Shown here in pieces: positions 32,577 through 56,621 of a stretch of DNA of 64,000 bases. The first letter of the stretch is position 1. Each line of letters opens with the position of its first letter. The notes under the pieces were generated by a model that saw only the letters and a list, made by a program, of their open reading frames with translations, did no database searches and was not told where the DNA came from. The position numbers and the translations under genes were made by a program. The DNA comes from an uncultured Candidatus Pelagibacter sp. (GTDB lineage Bacteria; Pseudomonadota; Alphaproteobacteria; Pelagibacterales; Pelagibacteraceae). The stretch is taken from assembly GCA_905616465.1 (NCBI GenBank), contig CAJQSX010000023.1, forward strand, positions 88,027-152,026, read 5' to 3'.

Positions 32577-34196
32577 ATGAAAAAAAATAAATTAAAAATA
32601 TTAGATTGCACACTAAGAGATGGTGGATATTACAATAATTGGAATTTTAATATTGACTTGATTAATAAATATTTAAAAGTGATGTCAGATATAAAAGTTG
32701 ATTATGTTGAAATTGGCTTTAGGTCTGGAGAAAAAAAAGAATTCAGAGGTGCATGTGCATATTCAACAGATGAATTTTTAAATAACTTAAAAATACCTAA
32801 AAATTTGAATATTGCTGTAATGATTAATGGTGCAGAATTAATCAAAAATGATTTTTTAAAAAAGAAAAGTTCTTCTCTAAATAATCTATTTAAAAAATCT
32901 AAGTTTAGTAAAGTAAAATTGGTTAGAATAGCTTGTCACTTTTCAGAGATTTATAAAGTAATACCAGTAGCATCTAGAATAAAATCATTAGGATACAAGG
33001 TGGCTATTAATTTAATGCAAATTTCAGACAGAACAAATAATGAAATTCAAAAATTTTGTGATCTTGCAAAAAAACACAATATGGATGCTGTATATTTTGC
33101 AGATAGCACAGGAAGTTTAAATAGAGATCAAACTTTACAAATAGTTAAAAATTTTAAAAAGAATTGGAATGGAGATTTAGGAATTCATGCTCATGACAAC
33201 ATGGATATGGCAATGGAAAATGCAATGATTGCTTTAAACAATGGTGTGAATTGGATTGATTCCACTGTATTAGGAATGGGTAGAGGGCCAGGAAATGTAA
33301 AAACAGAAAATTTAGTTTTAGAATTAGAAAAAAGATTTAATAGAAAAGTAAATTATAATGAATTAATTAAATTAGTAGAAAATGATTTTTTCCCCCTGAA
33401 AAATAAGTATGGCTGGGGATCTAATGTTTACTATTATCTTTCAGGCCTTTATGGAATTCATCCCAGTTTTATACAGGGAATGCTAGGTGCAAAAACATTT
33501 AGCTCAGATGAGATTCTTGCAGTTATAGATAATTTAAAAACTGAAGGTGGAAAGAAATTTAGTGAAGATCTTATTAATACGCATAAACAATACTTTGTTG
33601 GAAAAGGAAAAGGAAAATATCAGCCAATTAAAAATATTAAAAATAGAGACGTTTTAATTCTTGGCTCAGGTGATGGTGTCAAAACTCATAAAATGGCCTT
33701 AGAGAGTTTTATTAAAAAATATAAACCATTTGTTGTTGCTTTAAATACACAAAACTCAATTAATTCTAAATTAATCAATACAAGAGCAGTCTGTAATACT
33801 CTGAGACTTTTAACTGATCATAAATCTTTTAAACATTTGCCACAAAAATTAATCCTGCCTTATCAAAGATTATCAAATTTAATAAAAGATAAGTTTAAAA
33901 AAGTAAAAAAATTAGATTTTGGTGTTGAAGTAAAAAATAATACTTTTAAGTTTATGAAATCTTCGGCAGTAATTCCAAATACTTTAGCAATTTCATATGC
34001 TTTAGGAATTGCTAATTGTGGAAAAGCAAAAAAAATTTATATAGCAGGTTTTGATGGTTATGAAGCTGAAGATCCAAAAAGAAGAGAGATGGATGAGCTG
34101 TTTGCTTTATATCAATCTTTAAAAAAAAAGGCAGAATTAACAAGTATTACACCTACAAAATATAAGGTAAAATCTTTATCAGTTTATGCTTTGTAA
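32577..34196 (+). CDS. HMGL-like (DRE-TIM) aldolase domain fused to a Rossmann-like C-terminal domain
   Basis: ILDCTLRDGGYYNNWNF, GIHAHDNMDMAMENAMIAL, DSTVLGMGRGPGN; C-terminal RDVLILGSGDGVKTH and IYIAGFDGYEAEDPKRREMDELF. Confidence 0.85.
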   Translation: MKKNKLKILDCTLRDGGYYNNWNFNIDLINKYLKVMSDIKVDYVEIGFRSGEKKEFRGACAYSTDEFLNNLKIPKNLNIAVMINGAELIKNDFLKKKSSSLNNLFKKSKFSKVKLVRIACHFSEIYKVIPVASRIKSLGYKVAINLMQISDRTNNEIQKFCDLAKKHNMDAVYFADSTGSLNRDQTLQIVKNFKKNWNGDLGIHAHDNMDMAMENAMIALNNGVNWIDSTVLGMGRGPGNVKTENLVLELEKRFNRKVNYNELIKLVENDFFPLKNKYGWGSNVYYYLSGLYGIHPSFIQGMLGAKTFSSDEILAVIDNLKTEGGKKFSEDLINTHKQYFVGKGKGKYQPIKNIKNRDVLILGSGDGVKTHKMALESFIKKYKPFVVALNTQNSINSKLINTRAVCNTLRLLTDHKSFKHLPQKLILPYQRLSNLIKDKFKKVKKLDFGVEVKNNTFKFMKSSAVIPNTLAISYALGIANCGKAKKIYIAGFDGYEAEDPKRREMDELFALYQSLKKKAELTSITPTKYKVKSLSVYAL

Positions 34197-34221: not shown

Positions 34222-34947
34222 ATGAAATATTATCTGGTAATACCCGCAAGATATAATTCTAAAAGATTCCCAGGAAAGCCCCTGATTGATATTTGTGGCA
34301 TTCCAATGATAATCAGAACATACAATCAATGTAAAAAAGTTGTTCCTAAATCTAAAATTTTGATAGCAACTGATGATAAAAGAATCCAAAAAGTCTGTGA
34401 AAAGGAAAAAATTAATGTAATTATGACTTCAAAAAAGTGTCTAACAGGTACAGATAGAGTTGCTGAAGTTGCAAAGAAATTTAAAGCTGATTTTTATTTA
34501 AATATACAAGGTGATGAACCTTTATGTAATCCTACTGATATTAAAAAATTATTAACTGCTGCAAAAAAAAATCCAAAAACTATAATTAATGGTTACACCG
34601 CAATTAAAGATAAAAAACTTTTTAATTCAGGAAATATTCCCAAAGTTGTATTTAGAATGGATGGAAGGTTACTATACCAATCAAGAGCCCCTATACCAAC
34701 CACGAAAGACAAAAAATTTATAAAATCTTGGAGACAAGTATGTATCTATTCACTTCCTTTTAAATCATTAGCTGCCTTTAAATCAGTAAGAAATAAAACT
34801 CCACTAGAAAAATTGGAGGATTGTGAATTATTAAGATTTCTAGAGCTTGGATATGAGGTAAAAATGATTAAGATGTCTGATAAATCAATTTCTGTTGATA
34901 CAAAAGATAACTTAACTGAAGTAATTAAAGAAATTAAAAAAGGTTAA
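34222..34947 (+). CDS. KdsB-like 3-deoxy-ulosonate cytidylyltransferase
   Basis: VIPARYNSKRFPGKPL, IATDDKRI, LTGTDRVAEVA, INIQGDEPL-like NIQGDEPLC. Confidence 0.87.
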   Translation: MKYYLVIPARYNSKRFPGKPLIDICGIPMIIRTYNQCKKVVPKSKILIATDDKRIQKVCEKEKINVIMTSKKCLTGTDRVAEVAKKFKADFYLNIQGDEPLCNPTDIKKLLTAAKKNPKTIINGYTAIKDKKLFNSGNIPKVVFRMDGRLLYQSRAPIPTTKDKKFIKSWRQVCIYSLPFKSLAAFKSVRNKTPLEKLEDCELLRFLELGYEVKMIKMSDKSISVDTKDNLTEVIKEIKKG

Positions 34948-35031: not shown

Positions 35032-36615
35032 ATGCTTAAGTCTCCTTTTAAAACTAGAAATCCCAAAGATTTTAAAATATTAATTTTTTATCCAAATCTA
35101 CATATGAGTGCTCTAATGCCTCAGTCGGTTGGTATCTTTACAGCCTTACTCAAACAAGAGGGTTATCCTTTAGATCTCTTTGATTGCACTTATTACGAAG
35201 ACATTGATTCTTTAACTCTTGGAAAAAATACCAATGAAGAAAAAGTTGAAAATAGAAATGTCCATAAGTATGACAATACAGAATGGCATGAAAGAGGTGT
35301 AAAGCCTAAAAATGGTATTGTTGAAGCCTTTAAAAAGAAAGTAACAACCTTTAAGCCAGATTTAATTTTAGTTTCAGTTCTTGAAAGCACTTATTATCTA
35401 GCAATAGATTTGCTTAAAGCAATTCCTGAAAAAGATCGAACATATAAAACTTTTTTTGGAGGTGTCTTTGCAACTTATGCAGCGAATAAAATTATTAAAA
35501 ATGATCTTGTTGATTATGTTTGTAGAGGTGAGGGTGAGGGTGCCGTTGTCGAAATGGCAAATGCACTTAGTTCTGGTGGCAGAATTGATCAAATCAAAAA
35601 TTGTACTGTAAAGGGTGAGGGAAATATTTTTAGAAATAATATGCGACCTCCTATAGATATTGACTCGGTACCAATACCAGATTGGGATTTATTTGAGTCC
35701 GGAAGTCTCTATAGACCCATGCAAGGAAAAATATGGAGAGCCGTAGGTTTTGAAACGCAAAGAGGATGTCCCTACACATGTACATTTTGTAATTCGCCTT
35801 CTAATAACGTTGAATATAAAGCAGAGACTGGAGGAAAGTTTCATAGAAAAAAAAGTATAGGGCGAATGAAAAAAGAATTAGATTTTTTAGTTAAAAAATA
35901 TGATCCTAATTTAATTTATTTTGTTGTTGATACTTTCTTGGCAATGTCCAACAGAGAGTTTGATGAATTAAAGGAACTTTATTCAGACTATAAAATTCCT
36001 TTTTGGATGAATACTAGAGCAGAAACTATTAATGAGTATAGAGCTGCAGGTTTAGCAGAGATGAACATGTTAAGAATGAATATTGGAATTGAACATGGGA
36101 ATTATGATTATAGAAGAAATTATCTCAAACGTAATGTAAAAAATGATGTTCAAATAAGAGCATTTCAGATTGCTGCAGAACATGATTATGCATCTTGCGC
36201 AAACAGTATTATTGGAATGCCAGATGAAACTAGGGATCTGATATTTGATACCATAAATTTTGTTAGAGAACTTCCAGATAGTATTGATGCTACTGGAGCA
36301 TTTATTTTTGCCCCTTATCACGGCACACCATTAAGAGACCTTGCTATTAGAAAAGGTTATATAAATGATGAAGAAATATGCTCTTTATCAAATACGAGTG
36401 AAAGCATGTTAAGAATGCCAACTATATCAAAAAATGAAATTCAAGGATTGGCCAAAACTTTTAGCCTATATACAAAATTTCCCAAAGAAAGATGGCCAGA
36501 AATTAAGATTGCAGAAAGTGATGGTGCAGAAGGTACGAAAATGATGGATAAATTAGGAAAAGAATTTGATAATACTTATAGACAATTTGCTAGTGCGTCA
36601 GACCTACACGACTAA
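35032..36615 (+). CDS. B12-binding-domain radical SAM protein
   Basis: GCPYTCTFCNSPSNN (CxxxCxxC) radical SAM cluster; N-terminal FYPNLHMSALMPQSVGIFTALLKQEGYPLDLFDC plus FFGGVFATY cobalamin-binding-type domain. Confidence 0.87.
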   Translation: MLKSPFKTRNPKDFKILIFYPNLHMSALMPQSVGIFTALLKQEGYPLDLFDCTYYEDIDSLTLGKNTNEEKVENRNVHKYDNTEWHERGVKPKNGIVEAFKKKVTTFKPDLILVSVLESTYYLAIDLLKAIPEKDRTYKTFFGGVFATYAANKIIKNDLVDYVCRGEGEGAVVEMANALSSGGRIDQIKNCTVKGEGNIFRNNMRPPIDIDSVPIPDWDLFESGSLYRPMQGKIWRAVGFETQRGCPYTCTFCNSPSNNVEYKAETGGKFHRKKSIGRMKKELDFLVKKYDPNLIYFVVDTFLAMSNREFDELKELYSDYKIPFWMNTRAETINEYRAAGLAEMNMLRMNIGIEHGNYDYRRNYLKRNVKNDVQIRAFQIAAEHDYASCANSIIGMPDETRDLIFDTINFVRELPDSIDATGAFIFAPYHGTPLRDLAIRKGYINDEEICSLSNTSESMLRMPTISKNEIQGLAKTFSLYTKFPKERWPEIKIAESDGAEGTKMMDKLGKEFDNTYRQFASASDLHD

Positions 36616-37093
36616 AAATTTTTTTTAGAAATATTTTTCTCGAAATAATAGTTTCAATAATTGCTGAAAATAATATTGTTGATACTAATGTGTTACCAAA
36701 AAATGGTAAAGCAAGAGAATAGCATGCAATCAGCCCTTCAAGGGTATAACCATAAGATCCAAGGGACCAGACACCAAAGTTTGTAATTACGAAGAAAATG
36801 ACAGCACCCATTAAAGCACCTGCAATTCTAGATAGTTTTCTTGTAAGAAAAAATTTTGAAGACAATCCTACAACAATAACGCTACCCCAAGTAAAAAGTG
36901 TAATAGCATGAAATCCTATAAACAGATCTGTAATTAGGAAGCTTAGTATTAACGCAGGTAGGTATCTTACCCCTAATAAAGCTGGAACATAAAAACTCAA
37001 GGCCATCAAACTAGTAAAATTTGGTGGGTGAGGAATAAAGCGGCTAGCTGCCAAAACTAGAAAGATGCCTATGCTTACTTTTAGATAATTCAC
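36590..37093 (-). CDS. Small multi-TM protein, DUF6580-like; candidate S-component/permease for corrinoid
   Basis: 167 aa, about 5-6 hydrophobic segments; RFIPHPPNFTSLMALSFYVPALLGVRYLPALILSFLITDLFIGFHA; 61 bp downstream of the BtuB-like receptor on the same strand. Confidence 0.7.
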   Translation of the reverse strand: MNYLKVSIGIFLVLAASRFIPHPPNFTSLMALSFYVPALLGVRYLPALILSFLITDLFIGFHAITLFTWGSVIVVGLSSKFFLTRKLSRIAGALMGAVIFFVITNFGVWSLGSYGYTLEGLIACYSLALPFFGNTLVSTILFSAIIETIISRKIFLKKIFSRVGLTH

Positions 37094-37154
37094 TATAAAA
37101 CTATATTGAACTTAAAAAAAATAAGCAAGTGCAAAGGCAATTTTATTTTTATCT

Positions 37155-39137
37155 TTAGTATGTTTTTTTAATACCAAAATTATAACTTCTATCCATTTGA
37201 TTGTAGTCTTGAGTAGTTTGATATTTTTTATCAAAAACATTGGTAATACCAAAGTAAAGATTATAGACATTTAAGTAATTATATCTAACTGACAAATCAT
37301 TTACTAAATAACTTTCTAGTTCTGCATCTGCAAATGATGCTCCATTTCTATTAACATTACCAGTTCCATAGTCTCTTGCTTCATCAGACCATTTAGTTCT
37401 TAAGGTTACATCTAAATCGTTATAACCAGGAACTTTTAAATTCGTAATTAAATTTACTAAATTTCTTGGAACTCTAACCATTTGTGAGCCAATCTGGCTA
37501 TTATTAGGATTGTCTTGTTCTGCACCATCATAAGTTTGAGTGTATGTGTAATTGAAACCAAAATTCAACATATCATTTAATTTATATTTAGACATAAATT
37601 CTAAACCTTGTGATTTAGTTGTGCTTGGGGAGTTCTGTGTAGTTGATCCAGATCCAGCTGCTTTGTTCCCACTCCAACCTTCAAGTGCATCAAAATATTT
37701 AACGTTAAAGTAAGTTAAATCTATAAATAAATCTGGACTTATAGATTTTTCAATTCCAAAATCATAACTTTGACTATTTTCTGCTGATACATAAGGCAAT
37801 GAATCTTTTCCTCCATTATTTCTTGAATTCCATACAAAAAGCATTTCATATAACGAAGGAAATCTATAACCGGTTCCATATGAAGATTTTAACTTGGTAG
37901 CTTTATCATCAAACACATAAGCAAGTGTCGCTCTATGTGAATCTTCGTTTGAACCACCACCCGCAAGTGAATGTTCATCAAATCTTGCACCAAAAGTAGC
38001 ATAGATATTATTTGTTAACTTACTTTGATAATCAAAATATTGAGATGTAACATAAGCATTCGAGTCTATTCTTCCAGTTTCGTCTTTATTATATCCCATT
38101 TGGTCGTCCTCTCTCTCTAGTCCAAATACAATACTATTATCTAAATTAAAGTTATAATTACCTTGGTAAAGATAGGCATATCTATCACCATAGTAATTAT
38201 CTTGAGCTGTATTTTTACTACCAGGTGCAGCAGCATAAATTCTTTTGATGTAGGTATTTGCAACAGTAAATTTATTTGTAAGCTTTTCTATTGGTTTATA
38301 TATCAAGCTAACGTTTGTTGCTGATTCTACAGCGTCTACTTCCTCACTATGAGTACGAGTAGCTGAACAACCGAATAAACTAGATACACATACTGCATCA
38401 TATTGTAGATATGTTTCAGCAACTCTTACATTACTTTGTAGTTCCAATGTATCTGAAAATTTATCACTAAAACTAGCTACTAATCCATTATTTCTATATC
38501 TATCCTTTTCACTATTATGATCCATTTGTGAAATTCCATCAGTCTGAAATCTTTGTAAGCCAATATAATAATTTTTACTTTCATCTCCACCTGAAACAGA
38601 AGTAGATAAATTATGTGTACCATGAGAACCTGTGGCGTAATTTACATCTTTTTTAAAACCAGGCTCTCCTTTTTTTGTAGTAATATGTATAGTTCCACCT
38701 ATAGCACCACTTCCATAAATTGAACTTTGATTGCCTTTTAAAATTTCAACTCTTGATACTTGGCTAGTTAAAATATTATTAAATTCAAAATCATTAGATA
38801 CACTTGAAGGATCTGACATTTTAACACCATCTATATAAACAGTAGAGTATCTTTTGGGCATACCCCTTAATTGAATTGCTGATGATGTTCCGTGTCCACC
38901 ACTTTGAAAGAAATTAGCACCTGTTGTGGACGTGCTTAATGCGTCTCCTAAAAAATATTCAGTAGAATTATTAAAAAATTTTTCATCAAGAATAGTTGTT
39001 GACGTACCTATAGTTGATAAAGACTGTGGTTTTTTGCTTGCTGAGATTACAATTATAGGAATTTCTTTTGAAAAAACTGAGCTTGTAATTAAAATAAAAT
39101 AAAAAAATATAAATACTCTTAACATCATTTGACACAT
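37155..39137 (-). CDS. btuB: TonB-dependent outer-membrane receptor, BtuB-like
   Basis: Signal peptide, plug domain (IQLRGMPKRYSTVYIDGVKMSDPS, VSRVEILKGNQSSIYGSGAIGGTIHITTKKG), C-terminal aromatic end; preceded by cobalamin riboswitch. Confidence 0.88.
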   Translation of the reverse strand: MCQMMLRVFIFFYFILITSSVFSKEIPIIVISASKKPQSLSTIGTSTTILDEKFFNNSTEYFLGDALSTSTTGANFFQSGGHGTSSAIQLRGMPKRYSTVYIDGVKMSDPSSVSNDFEFNNILTSQVSRVEILKGNQSSIYGSGAIGGTIHITTKKGEPGFKKDVNYATGSHGTHNLSTSVSGGDESKNYYIGLQRFQTDGISQMDHNSEKDRYRNNGLVASFSDKFSDTLELQSNVRVAETYLQYDAVCVSSLFGCSATRTHSEEVDAVESATNVSLIYKPIEKLTNKFTVANTYIKRIYAAAPGSKNTAQDNYYGDRYAYLYQGNYNFNLDNSIVFGLEREDDQMGYNKDETGRIDSNAYVTSQYFDYQSKLTNNIYATFGARFDEHSLAGGGSNEDSHRATLAYVFDDKATKLKSSYGTGYRFPSLYEMLFVWNSRNNGGKDSLPYVSAENSQSYDFGIEKSISPDLFIDLTYFNVKYFDALEGWSGNKAAGSGSTTQNSPSTTKSQGLEFMSKYKLNDMLNFGFNYTYTQTYDGAEQDNPNNSQIGSQMVRVPRNLVNLITNLKVPGYNDLDVTLRTKWSDEARDYGTGNVNRNGASFADAELESYLVNDLSVRYNYLNVYNLYFGITNVFDKKYQTTQDYNQMDRSYNFGIKKTY

Positions 39138-39224
39138 CTATTGTTAAGCCTCATAAAAAATATGAAACTTGTTAATTAATGCCGATGCTAATTAAAATTG
39201 TAGAACTAGACTTTTCCTGGCCAT

Positions 39225-39340
39225 TGTTCAACAGCGGACTATACTGGATGGTACTCGGGCTTAACTTATATTAGCTTAACCGTTGCAGGAACAGTTAATG
39301 ATTTTCACATTATTCCCCATCATGATTCAGTACAGTTAAT
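39225..39340 (-). ncRNA. Cobalamin riboswitch (aptamer core)
   Basis: Minus strand reads ...GGGGAATAATGTGAAAATCATTAACTGTTCCTGCAACGGTTAAGC...AGTTAAGCCCGAGTACCATCC, matching the conserved GGAA..GTG.AAATC..CTGT.CC.GCAACGGT..AAG.CCGA.ACC (B12-box) order. Confidence 0.85.
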
Positions 39341-39367: not shown

Positions 39368-40135
39368 TCAAATTTTTAGATTTATATTAATTGATCTTCT
39401 CACTTCGTCTTCTGGAATATCTAATTTTTTTACAGAATGCCAAGATAAATCAGATTTTATGAAGCAATATAAATTCTTTTTTTTAAACGGGAAGGTCATA
39501 GTCTCTTCAAAATTTTCATTAAAAGTTGAATTATTCTTTTCATCAAAAAGTCCATTTTTATTGTTGTAAAAGTTTTTCATTTTTGAATTATAAAAAGTTG
39601 TTCCTATACTTAAATTTTCTAAATTTTTAGATGGAAAATATAGCATCAAAGATAGAAGTTTAGATTTTTGATCAGTGTGTGGATGGATAAAAGATCCCTT
39701 ATACATGTAAGAGAATTGAAAAAGACGTTGAAAATGTGAATATAAAAATTTTTGAATTAAATTTTTTTTTATTTCATTTTGCACAAGTTTTGGTTTTCTG
39801 ATCAGTGAATAAAGATTCTTTAAATTTGTTAGATTTTTTAAATCAACTAATCGAGAAATAATTATTTCTTTTTTTAATTTATTTAACAAATCTATACAAA
39901 ATTTGTCATTAAATTTTTTTTCTAAAATTTCTATTGATAAATTTTTATCTTTATTAAGAGATTTGTAAAAGTCATCACGATTATCAACACTACGTTTTTT
40001 TCCAATATCAGGAGTTAAATCCTCTATCCCTTCTTTTGGAAAATTGTCATCTAAAGACTGATATTCTGAATCATCTAAAAAATTTTCTATAATAAAAATA
40101 TAAAATGGTTTTTTTTGTACGAATTTAATTTCCAT
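39368..40135 (-). CDS. Putative 2OG-Fe(II) oxygenase-like protein
   Basis: GSFIHPHTDQKSKLLSLMLYFPS (HxD) with distal His SDLSWHSVKKL and following Arg residues (DEVRRSI). Confidence 0.65.
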   Translation of the reverse strand: MEIKFVQKKPFYIFIIENFLDDSEYQSLDDNFPKEGIEDLTPDIGKKRSVDNRDDFYKSLNKDKNLSIEILEKKFNDKFCIDLLNKLKKEIIISRLVDLKNLTNLKNLYSLIRKPKLVQNEIKKNLIQKFLYSHFQRLFQFSYMYKGSFIHPHTDQKSKLLSLMLYFPSKNLENLSIGTTFYNSKMKNFYNNKNGLFDEKNNSTFNENFEETMTFPFKKKNLYCFIKSDLSWHSVKKLDIPEDEVRRSININLKI

Positions 40136-56484: not shown

Positions 56485-56511
56485 TGACAAAGTCAAATTA
56501 ATTAGTATTTT
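56484..56511 (+). promoter_or_regulatory. Candidate promoter for the str (rpsL-rpsG-fusA) operon
   Basis: TTGACA (56484-56489), 16-nt spacer, TATTTT (56506-56511). Confidence 0.5.
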
Positions 56512-56585
56512 GGCGGTGTTTTTGGTTGGAATGTAGTGTTAAGCTTATGCACTAAACGCTGCCACAAATAACCTGCCAGTTATTT
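56511..56585 (+). promoter_or_regulatory. Structured 5' leader upstream of rpsL
   Basis: Stem TGGCGGTGTTT (56511-56521)/AAACGCTGCCA (56554-56564) with two G-U pairs, inner AGTG/CACT, second hairpin AAATAAC (56566-56572)/GTTATTT (56579-56585). Confidence 0.55.
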
Positions 56586-56621
56586 TCTTTCAAAAACTTA
56601 TTAAATATAAAATTTAAAATT

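Follow-up and report, generated by a model that had tools for sequence, protein, structure and literature searches.

Gene layout of the locus

The window, a stretch of 64,000 nucleotides, belongs to a SAR11 (Pelagibacteraceae) assembly of 797,566 bases. It carries on its reverse strand a cobalamin (vitamin B12) riboswitch aptamer, a BtuB-like TonB-dependent receptor and a small membrane protein of the DUF6580 family, and on its forward strand the convergent gene of a B12-binding radical S-adenosylmethionine (radical-SAM) protein (Table 1). Since the assembly is 67% complete, absences are judged on relatives. The initial annotation had described the aptamer, the receptor and a 167-residue protein 61 bp behind it on the same strand, and all three are found as described. 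Its description of the small protein as DUF6580-like is borne out by PF20221, which matches with 98.8 bits (cut-off 27). It overlooked the radical-SAM gene, which overlaps the DUF6580 gene by 26 bp at the 3′ ends.

Table 1. Features of the riboswitch, receptor and DUF6580 locus and of neighbouring genes in the window
Feature	Position	Strand	Evidence
AdoCbl-II (class-II-type) cobalamin riboswitch aptamer	39241..39333	-	RF01689, 73.8 bits, E 1.6e-16
Conserved 3′ element (AGTCCGCTGTTGAA..GGCCAGGAAAAGTCTAGTTCT), directly after the aptamer, 40 nt	39201..39240	-	Present in 31 SAR11-type loci
BtuB-like TonB-dependent outer-membrane receptor, 660 aa	37155..39137	-	PF00593 82.5 bits, PF07715 69.2 bits
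DUF6580 small polytopic membrane protein, 167 aa, GTG start	36590..37093	-	PF20221, 98.8 bits
B12-binding radical-SAM protein, 527 aa	35032..36615	+	PF04055 61.7 bits, PF02310 40.5 bits
Cytidylyltransferase (CTP_transf_3), sugar-activation gene	34222..34947	+	PF02348 136.8 bits
HMGL-like aldolase-domain protein	32577..34196	+	PF00682 102 bits

Distribution and gene order

In the genus of the host (37 genomes sampled), DUF6580 is present in five genomes, G000, G015, G017, G018 and G036, and RF01689 in exactly the same five (Fisher p 2.3e-6). The second Pelagibacterales family, a sister family sampled with 24 genomes, has DUF6580 in 22 of them, and all five loci read there show an RF00174 riboswitch (104-122 bits) followed by the receptor and then by DUF6580. 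The order riboswitch, receptor, DUF6580 also occurs in distant carriers, under RF01689 in G419, a complete 1.21-Mb genome of the same family as the host, and under RF00174 in G387 (same class) and G270 (same phylum). The gene pair is retained under two cobalamin riboswitch classes, and its recurrence in this order in independent genomes, with either class, shows that the arrangement is not due to chance. Two sister-family genomes, G039 and G052, have B12 mutases with no DUF6580 found, which may reflect an assembly gap or another importer.

The named loci come from a scan of GTDB genomes and are the best 80 of at least 586 loci, not a random sample. The receptor lies immediately 5′ of DUF6580 on the same strand in 57 of these 80, and elsewhere in the locus in 7 more. 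Where SAR11-type loci have sufficient upstream DNA, the riboswitch is located 1.96-2.48 kb upstream (33 of 41), and 15 loci of SAR116 and other alphaproteobacteria (L115-L124, L127-L129, L134, L143) carry RF00174 at 1.9-2.2 kb. At L098, L141 and L148 the riboswitch and receptor are convergent, facing DUF6580 from the other side. The closest named relatives of the window protein are from SAR11 (Pelagibacterales/Pelagibacteraceae) genomes. The association of DUF6580 with B12 genes, BtuB-like receptors or cobalamin riboswitches is strong; its lack, which the initial annotation had named as a refuting result, did not appear.

Rfam matches downstream of or opposite DUF6580 (L140, L141, L148, L131, L145) are not counted as upstream riboswitches, nor is that of L146 (genome G498), which sits on a different contig. 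Fragmentary matches of about 23 bits in the phylum (G335, G184) are not counted as DUF6580. In the Neomarinimicrobiota loci L140 and L151, DUF6580 precedes a gene of about 520-540 aa, and the riboswitches lie elsewhere; the gene at L140 has no Pfam match.

Candidate Phyla Radiation (CPR) bacteria are monoderm, and their loci lack the receptor. Levybacteria L139 comprises a ribonucleotide reductase (TSCPD), a riboswitch (45.6 bits), a short DUF4430-like gene broken by a stop codon (L139:5500-5870), DUF6580 and a PduO-type adenosyltransferase (PF01923, 194.9 bits). In Blackburnbacteria L153, DUF4430 (47.7 bits) and then DUF6580 follow a riboswitch match that is below cut-off. That monoderm CPR keep DUF6580 without the receptor places the protein at the cytoplasmic membrane step. 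The Omnitrophota loci L131 and L145 contain BtuR (PF02572), DUF6580, riboswitch and receptor, in this order, and in L131 a TonB-type gene comes next.

Riboswitch and leader

The covariance-model match to RF01689 is full length (positions 1-81 of 81), exceeds the gathering score of 36.5 bits, and is the only one in the host genome. The aptamer is essentially the same as the known AdoCbl-II riboswitch, and what is additional is the flanking 3′ element conserved in SAR11. This element contains CAGGAA (39214-39219), the complement of the aptamer loop, UUCCUG (39286-39291). Across the 31 SAR11-type loci, the complementary stretch between element and loop averages 5.3 nt, versus 3.0 in shuffled controls, and the leader folds more strongly than its shuffles (z -2.24). 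A kissing loop is a known feature of cobalamin riboswitches, and the 3′ element is a candidate kissing-loop expression platform through which B12 would repress the operon.

The gene adjoining the riboswitch on its other side (39368-40135) has a weak 2-oxoglutarate-Fe(II) oxygenase match of 19.1 bits, below cut-off. An rspL RNA motif (RF01823, 84.9 bits) is present at 56510-56600.

The receptor

The receptor has plug and barrel domains and a B12 receptor among its top solved relatives, and is thus BtuB-like. Of the NCBIfam models, TIGR01779 (TonB-B12) fits it best, but the score of 136.9 bits is far below the equivalog cut-off of 599.7 and places the receptor outside the equivalog; heme-receptor models reach 112-119 bits. 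Among solved structures, the colicin I receptor matches as well as E. coli BtuB does (E about 7e-17), so that B12 is a putative substrate. The motif EIPIIVISA near the mature N-terminus is TonB-box-like by eye. TolQ/TolR-type proteins are present, and the next gene, in the TolA position (L155:9859-10668), has no Pfam match. TonB receptors had been called unexpected in SAR11; they are indeed rare, and two cultured strains have none (PMC3400609), but they are patchily present in the form of this operon.

The DUF6580 protein

Apart from PF20221, the window protein has no Pfam match, and no NCBIfam model exceeds its cut-off. A hidden Markov model of 54 DUF6580 proteins gave zero matches to PDB chains at E<=10. 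In the 54-sequence alignment, P21, H22, N25, D56, N105 and P130 are invariant, and H62 (51/54), W109, C124 (49/54) and Y125 are near-invariant. The conserved polar positions are R18, H22, N25, D56, H62, N105, W109, Y114, C124 and Y125, of which H22, H62 and C124 may serve as cobalt ligands.

AlphaFold2 models of the window protein (54 sequences; pLDDT 91, pTM 0.85) and of an Omnitrophota homologue (42 sequences; pLDDT 96.3, pTM 0.90) predict the six-helix S-component fold. For both models, the high-probability, high-TM (template modelling score) Foldseek matches in the PDB are S-components, including BioY, FolT, RibU and CbiM, with probabilities up to 0.99 and TM about 0.5-0.7; CbiM, a cobalt component, reaches TM 0.59/0.49. 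The earlier suggestion of an S-component-like protein is thus supported at the level of the predicted fold, but not at that of sequence, where NCBIfam gives no match over cut-off and the PDB profile search none at E<=10.

Missing importers and B12 synthesis

The initial annotation had named a btuCDF locus elsewhere in the genome as a refuting result; as judged on relatives, it did not appear. FecCD, the BtuC family, gives only weak matches of 19-31 bits in the 61 relatives and none in the complete genome G419, while the same search detects the family in 13 of 14 control genomes. The weak matches were rejected as BtuC: the representative L060 is a ZnuB-type ATP-binding cassette (ABC-3) permease (226.5 versus 32.4 bits) beside its ATPase, and as the others share its length and score range, BtuC is judged absent. 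EcfT/CbiQ (PF02361) of the energy-coupling factor (ECF) module is found in none of the 61 relatives, so DUF6580 would act alone.

None of the 44 genomes searched, seven of SAR116 included, has the B12-synthesis marker CbiC, which makes de novo synthesis unlikely. B12 synthesis genes have been reported for the SAR116 clade (PMC8547437); this one marker gives no support for them in the seven genomes.

B12-binding neighbours and genomic setting

A new observation is that all five genomes of the genus with the operon have a B12-binding radical-SAM gene beside it. PF02310 is over cut-off in 5/5 of them versus 1/32 others (p 1.4e-5), and always in a gene on the contig of the operon, overlapping it or separated by less than about 1.3 kb. 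All of these proteins are radical-SAM enzymes with a B12 domain, and the window's gene is the only PF02310 match in the host genome. MetH and mutases are therefore rejected as the B12 consumer in this genus, where the over-cut-off PF02310 proteins are of the radical-SAM type. The operon-less exception, G001 (60% complete), has its over-cut-off B12-binding radical-SAM gene at L154:15299-16867 on contig C1.

A similar gene is present at 29 named SAR11-type loci. PF04055 was found in all 30 radical-SAM proteins scanned, the window's included, and PF02310 in 29 of the 30; in further SAR11 operon genomes PF02310 is over cut-off in 12/12. In G419, about 8 kb separate the riboswitch from the gene of a radical-SAM protein whose B12 domain scores below cut-off. 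The B12 users of the sister family are methylmalonyl-CoA-mutase-family enzymes with MeaB. The adjoining radical-SAM enzyme is proposed as the user of the imported corrinoid.

Four loci of the genus (L029-L032) and that of G419 lie near rRNA genes, with sugar- or glycan-type genes around them, in an island-like setting. The window copy has no rRNA gene anywhere in the window.

Comparison with known systems

BtuM of Thiobacillus denitrificans is a solitary B12 transporter with the S-component fold (PMC6072759). DUF6580 resembles it as a small inner-membrane protein with this fold (predicted), in its linkage to btuB or adenosyltransferase genes, and in hosts without an ECF module; for BtuM, solitary action aided by metabolic trapping has been proposed, and the same is proposed for DUF6580. 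In sequence, the DUF6580 profile gave no match in a PDB set that should include the published BtuM structure, the presence of which in the set was not checked, no BtuM sequence having been compared directly. BtuM has the invariant cobalt ligand Cys80, whereas DUF6580 has H22 (54/54), D56, H62 and C124 (49/54). DUF6580 is best read as a new family for B12 import, not shown to belong to the BtuM family.

The predicted fold is also that of the ECF S-components FolT, RibU and BioY, but the 61 relatives searched lack the EcfT/CbiQ partner. As in the E. coli-type BtuBFCD system, an outer-membrane receptor is placed under a cobalamin riboswitch; unlike in that system, BtuC is absent and the inner-membrane step is assigned to DUF6580. 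A full-text literature search found no paper mentioning DUF6580 by name, and the literature on BtuM/BtuN-like alternatives and on SAR11 B12 uptake yielded no earlier description of the receptor-DUF6580 pair.

Interpretation and alternatives

The locus is likely to be an operon for corrinoid import that is repressed by cobalamin, and DUF6580 its corrinoid transporter, solitary, with an S-component fold and BtuM-like in action. In the SAR11 bacteria that carry the pair, DUF6580 is very probably the inner-membrane B12 importer, usually found beside a B12-using enzyme. The receptor would carry the corrinoid over the outer membrane, and DUF6580 alone would carry it over the inner membrane, without BtuCDF or an ECF module, as proposed for BtuM. 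B12-binding enzymes, in the genus the radical-SAM enzymes next door, would then capture the corrinoid and give a one-way flow. Once the cell has sufficient B12, the riboswitch would shut the operon off.

Several observations weigh against this interpretation. The S-component fold is common to MreD and the 5TMR sensor kinases (PMC11109136), so the fold alone is no proof of transport, and the Foldseek E-values of the S-component matches are weak (0.2-2.4, not significant). Genuine BtuC is found alongside DUF6580 in G270 and in several SAR116 and SAR86 genomes. TonB_C is absent from all 61 Pelagibacterales genomes, some of which have a TonB receptor, and the two-gene system of the initial annotation omits the adjoining radical-SAM enzyme. 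Five SAR11-type loci (L082, L085, L102, L103, L107) are without a detectable riboswitch, and neither riboswitch nor receptor is near DUF6580 in SAR86 (L130, L135, L146), L138, Flavobacteriales L142 or Bacteroidia L147 and L149. Three of these counter-example genomes (G484, G490, G494) have a B12-binding protein whose length, about 1,100-1,230 aa, is that of MetH, an identification by size only. The sister-family genome G039, 98% complete, has B12 enzymes and no DUF6580 found. Finally, most SAR11 genomes are incomplete, so that the absences rest on many genomes jointly.

Cobalt transporters are sometimes under cobalamin riboswitches, and DUF6580 could accordingly be a CbiM-like importer of cobalt instead of corrinoid. 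The structural match to CbiM, the invariant H22 and the near-invariant H62 fit this proposal. It is nevertheless improbable, as the lack of CbiC in the 44 genomes searched leaves no evident use for free cobalt, and the DUF6580 gene comes next after a BtuB-like receptor and neighbours adenosyltransferase genes in CPR and Omnitrophota and genes of B12-binding enzymes in SAR11.

An equally small probability is given to an accessory or regulatory role of DUF6580 in the membrane, for instance with a receptor-type S-component fold, and to another unrecognised permease moving B12 over the inner membrane. The sharing of the fold with sensor kinases and MreD, and the genomes with both DUF6580 and BtuC, would suit such a role. 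Yet DUF6580 lacks an output domain, the operon usually holds no other inner-membrane gene, no genuine BtuC and no EcfT was found in the 61 genomes of the order, and the protein is retained in the receptor-less CPR. Least probable is the import of another TonB-dependent substrate, such as heme or a siderophore, merely co-regulated with B12: the low TIGR01779 score, the close heme-model scores and the tie with the colicin I receptor would allow it, but the operon is controlled by two cobalamin riboswitch classes, its presence tracks B12-binding enzymes, and its receptor-less CPR form sits with a cobalamin adenosyltransferase.

Significance

Only about half of B12 auxotrophs have a predicted BtuCDF (PMC6072759; see also PMC8123684), and the inner-membrane importers of many prokaryotes relying on outside B12 are unidentified (PMC6072759, PMC8123684). 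If DUF6580 does import corrinoid, the family would supply the missing step in some CPR and in part of SAR11 and SAR116, two groups that abound in surface seawater. The response of SAR11 btuB to B12 has been described as unknown (PMC9296465); the cobalamin riboswitches at SAR11 loci predict that btuB is B12-responsive. More tentatively, DUF6580 may represent a widespread unnamed family of solitary corrinoid transporters extending from SAR11 to CPR, with SAR11 B12 use organised as an island module of importer and radical-SAM enzyme, and with a receptor working without canonical TonB. If the corrinoid-import reading holds, B12 use in SAR11 would be a strain-variable trait tied to radical-SAM enzymes and not to methionine synthesis, which would alter models of B12 competition at sea.

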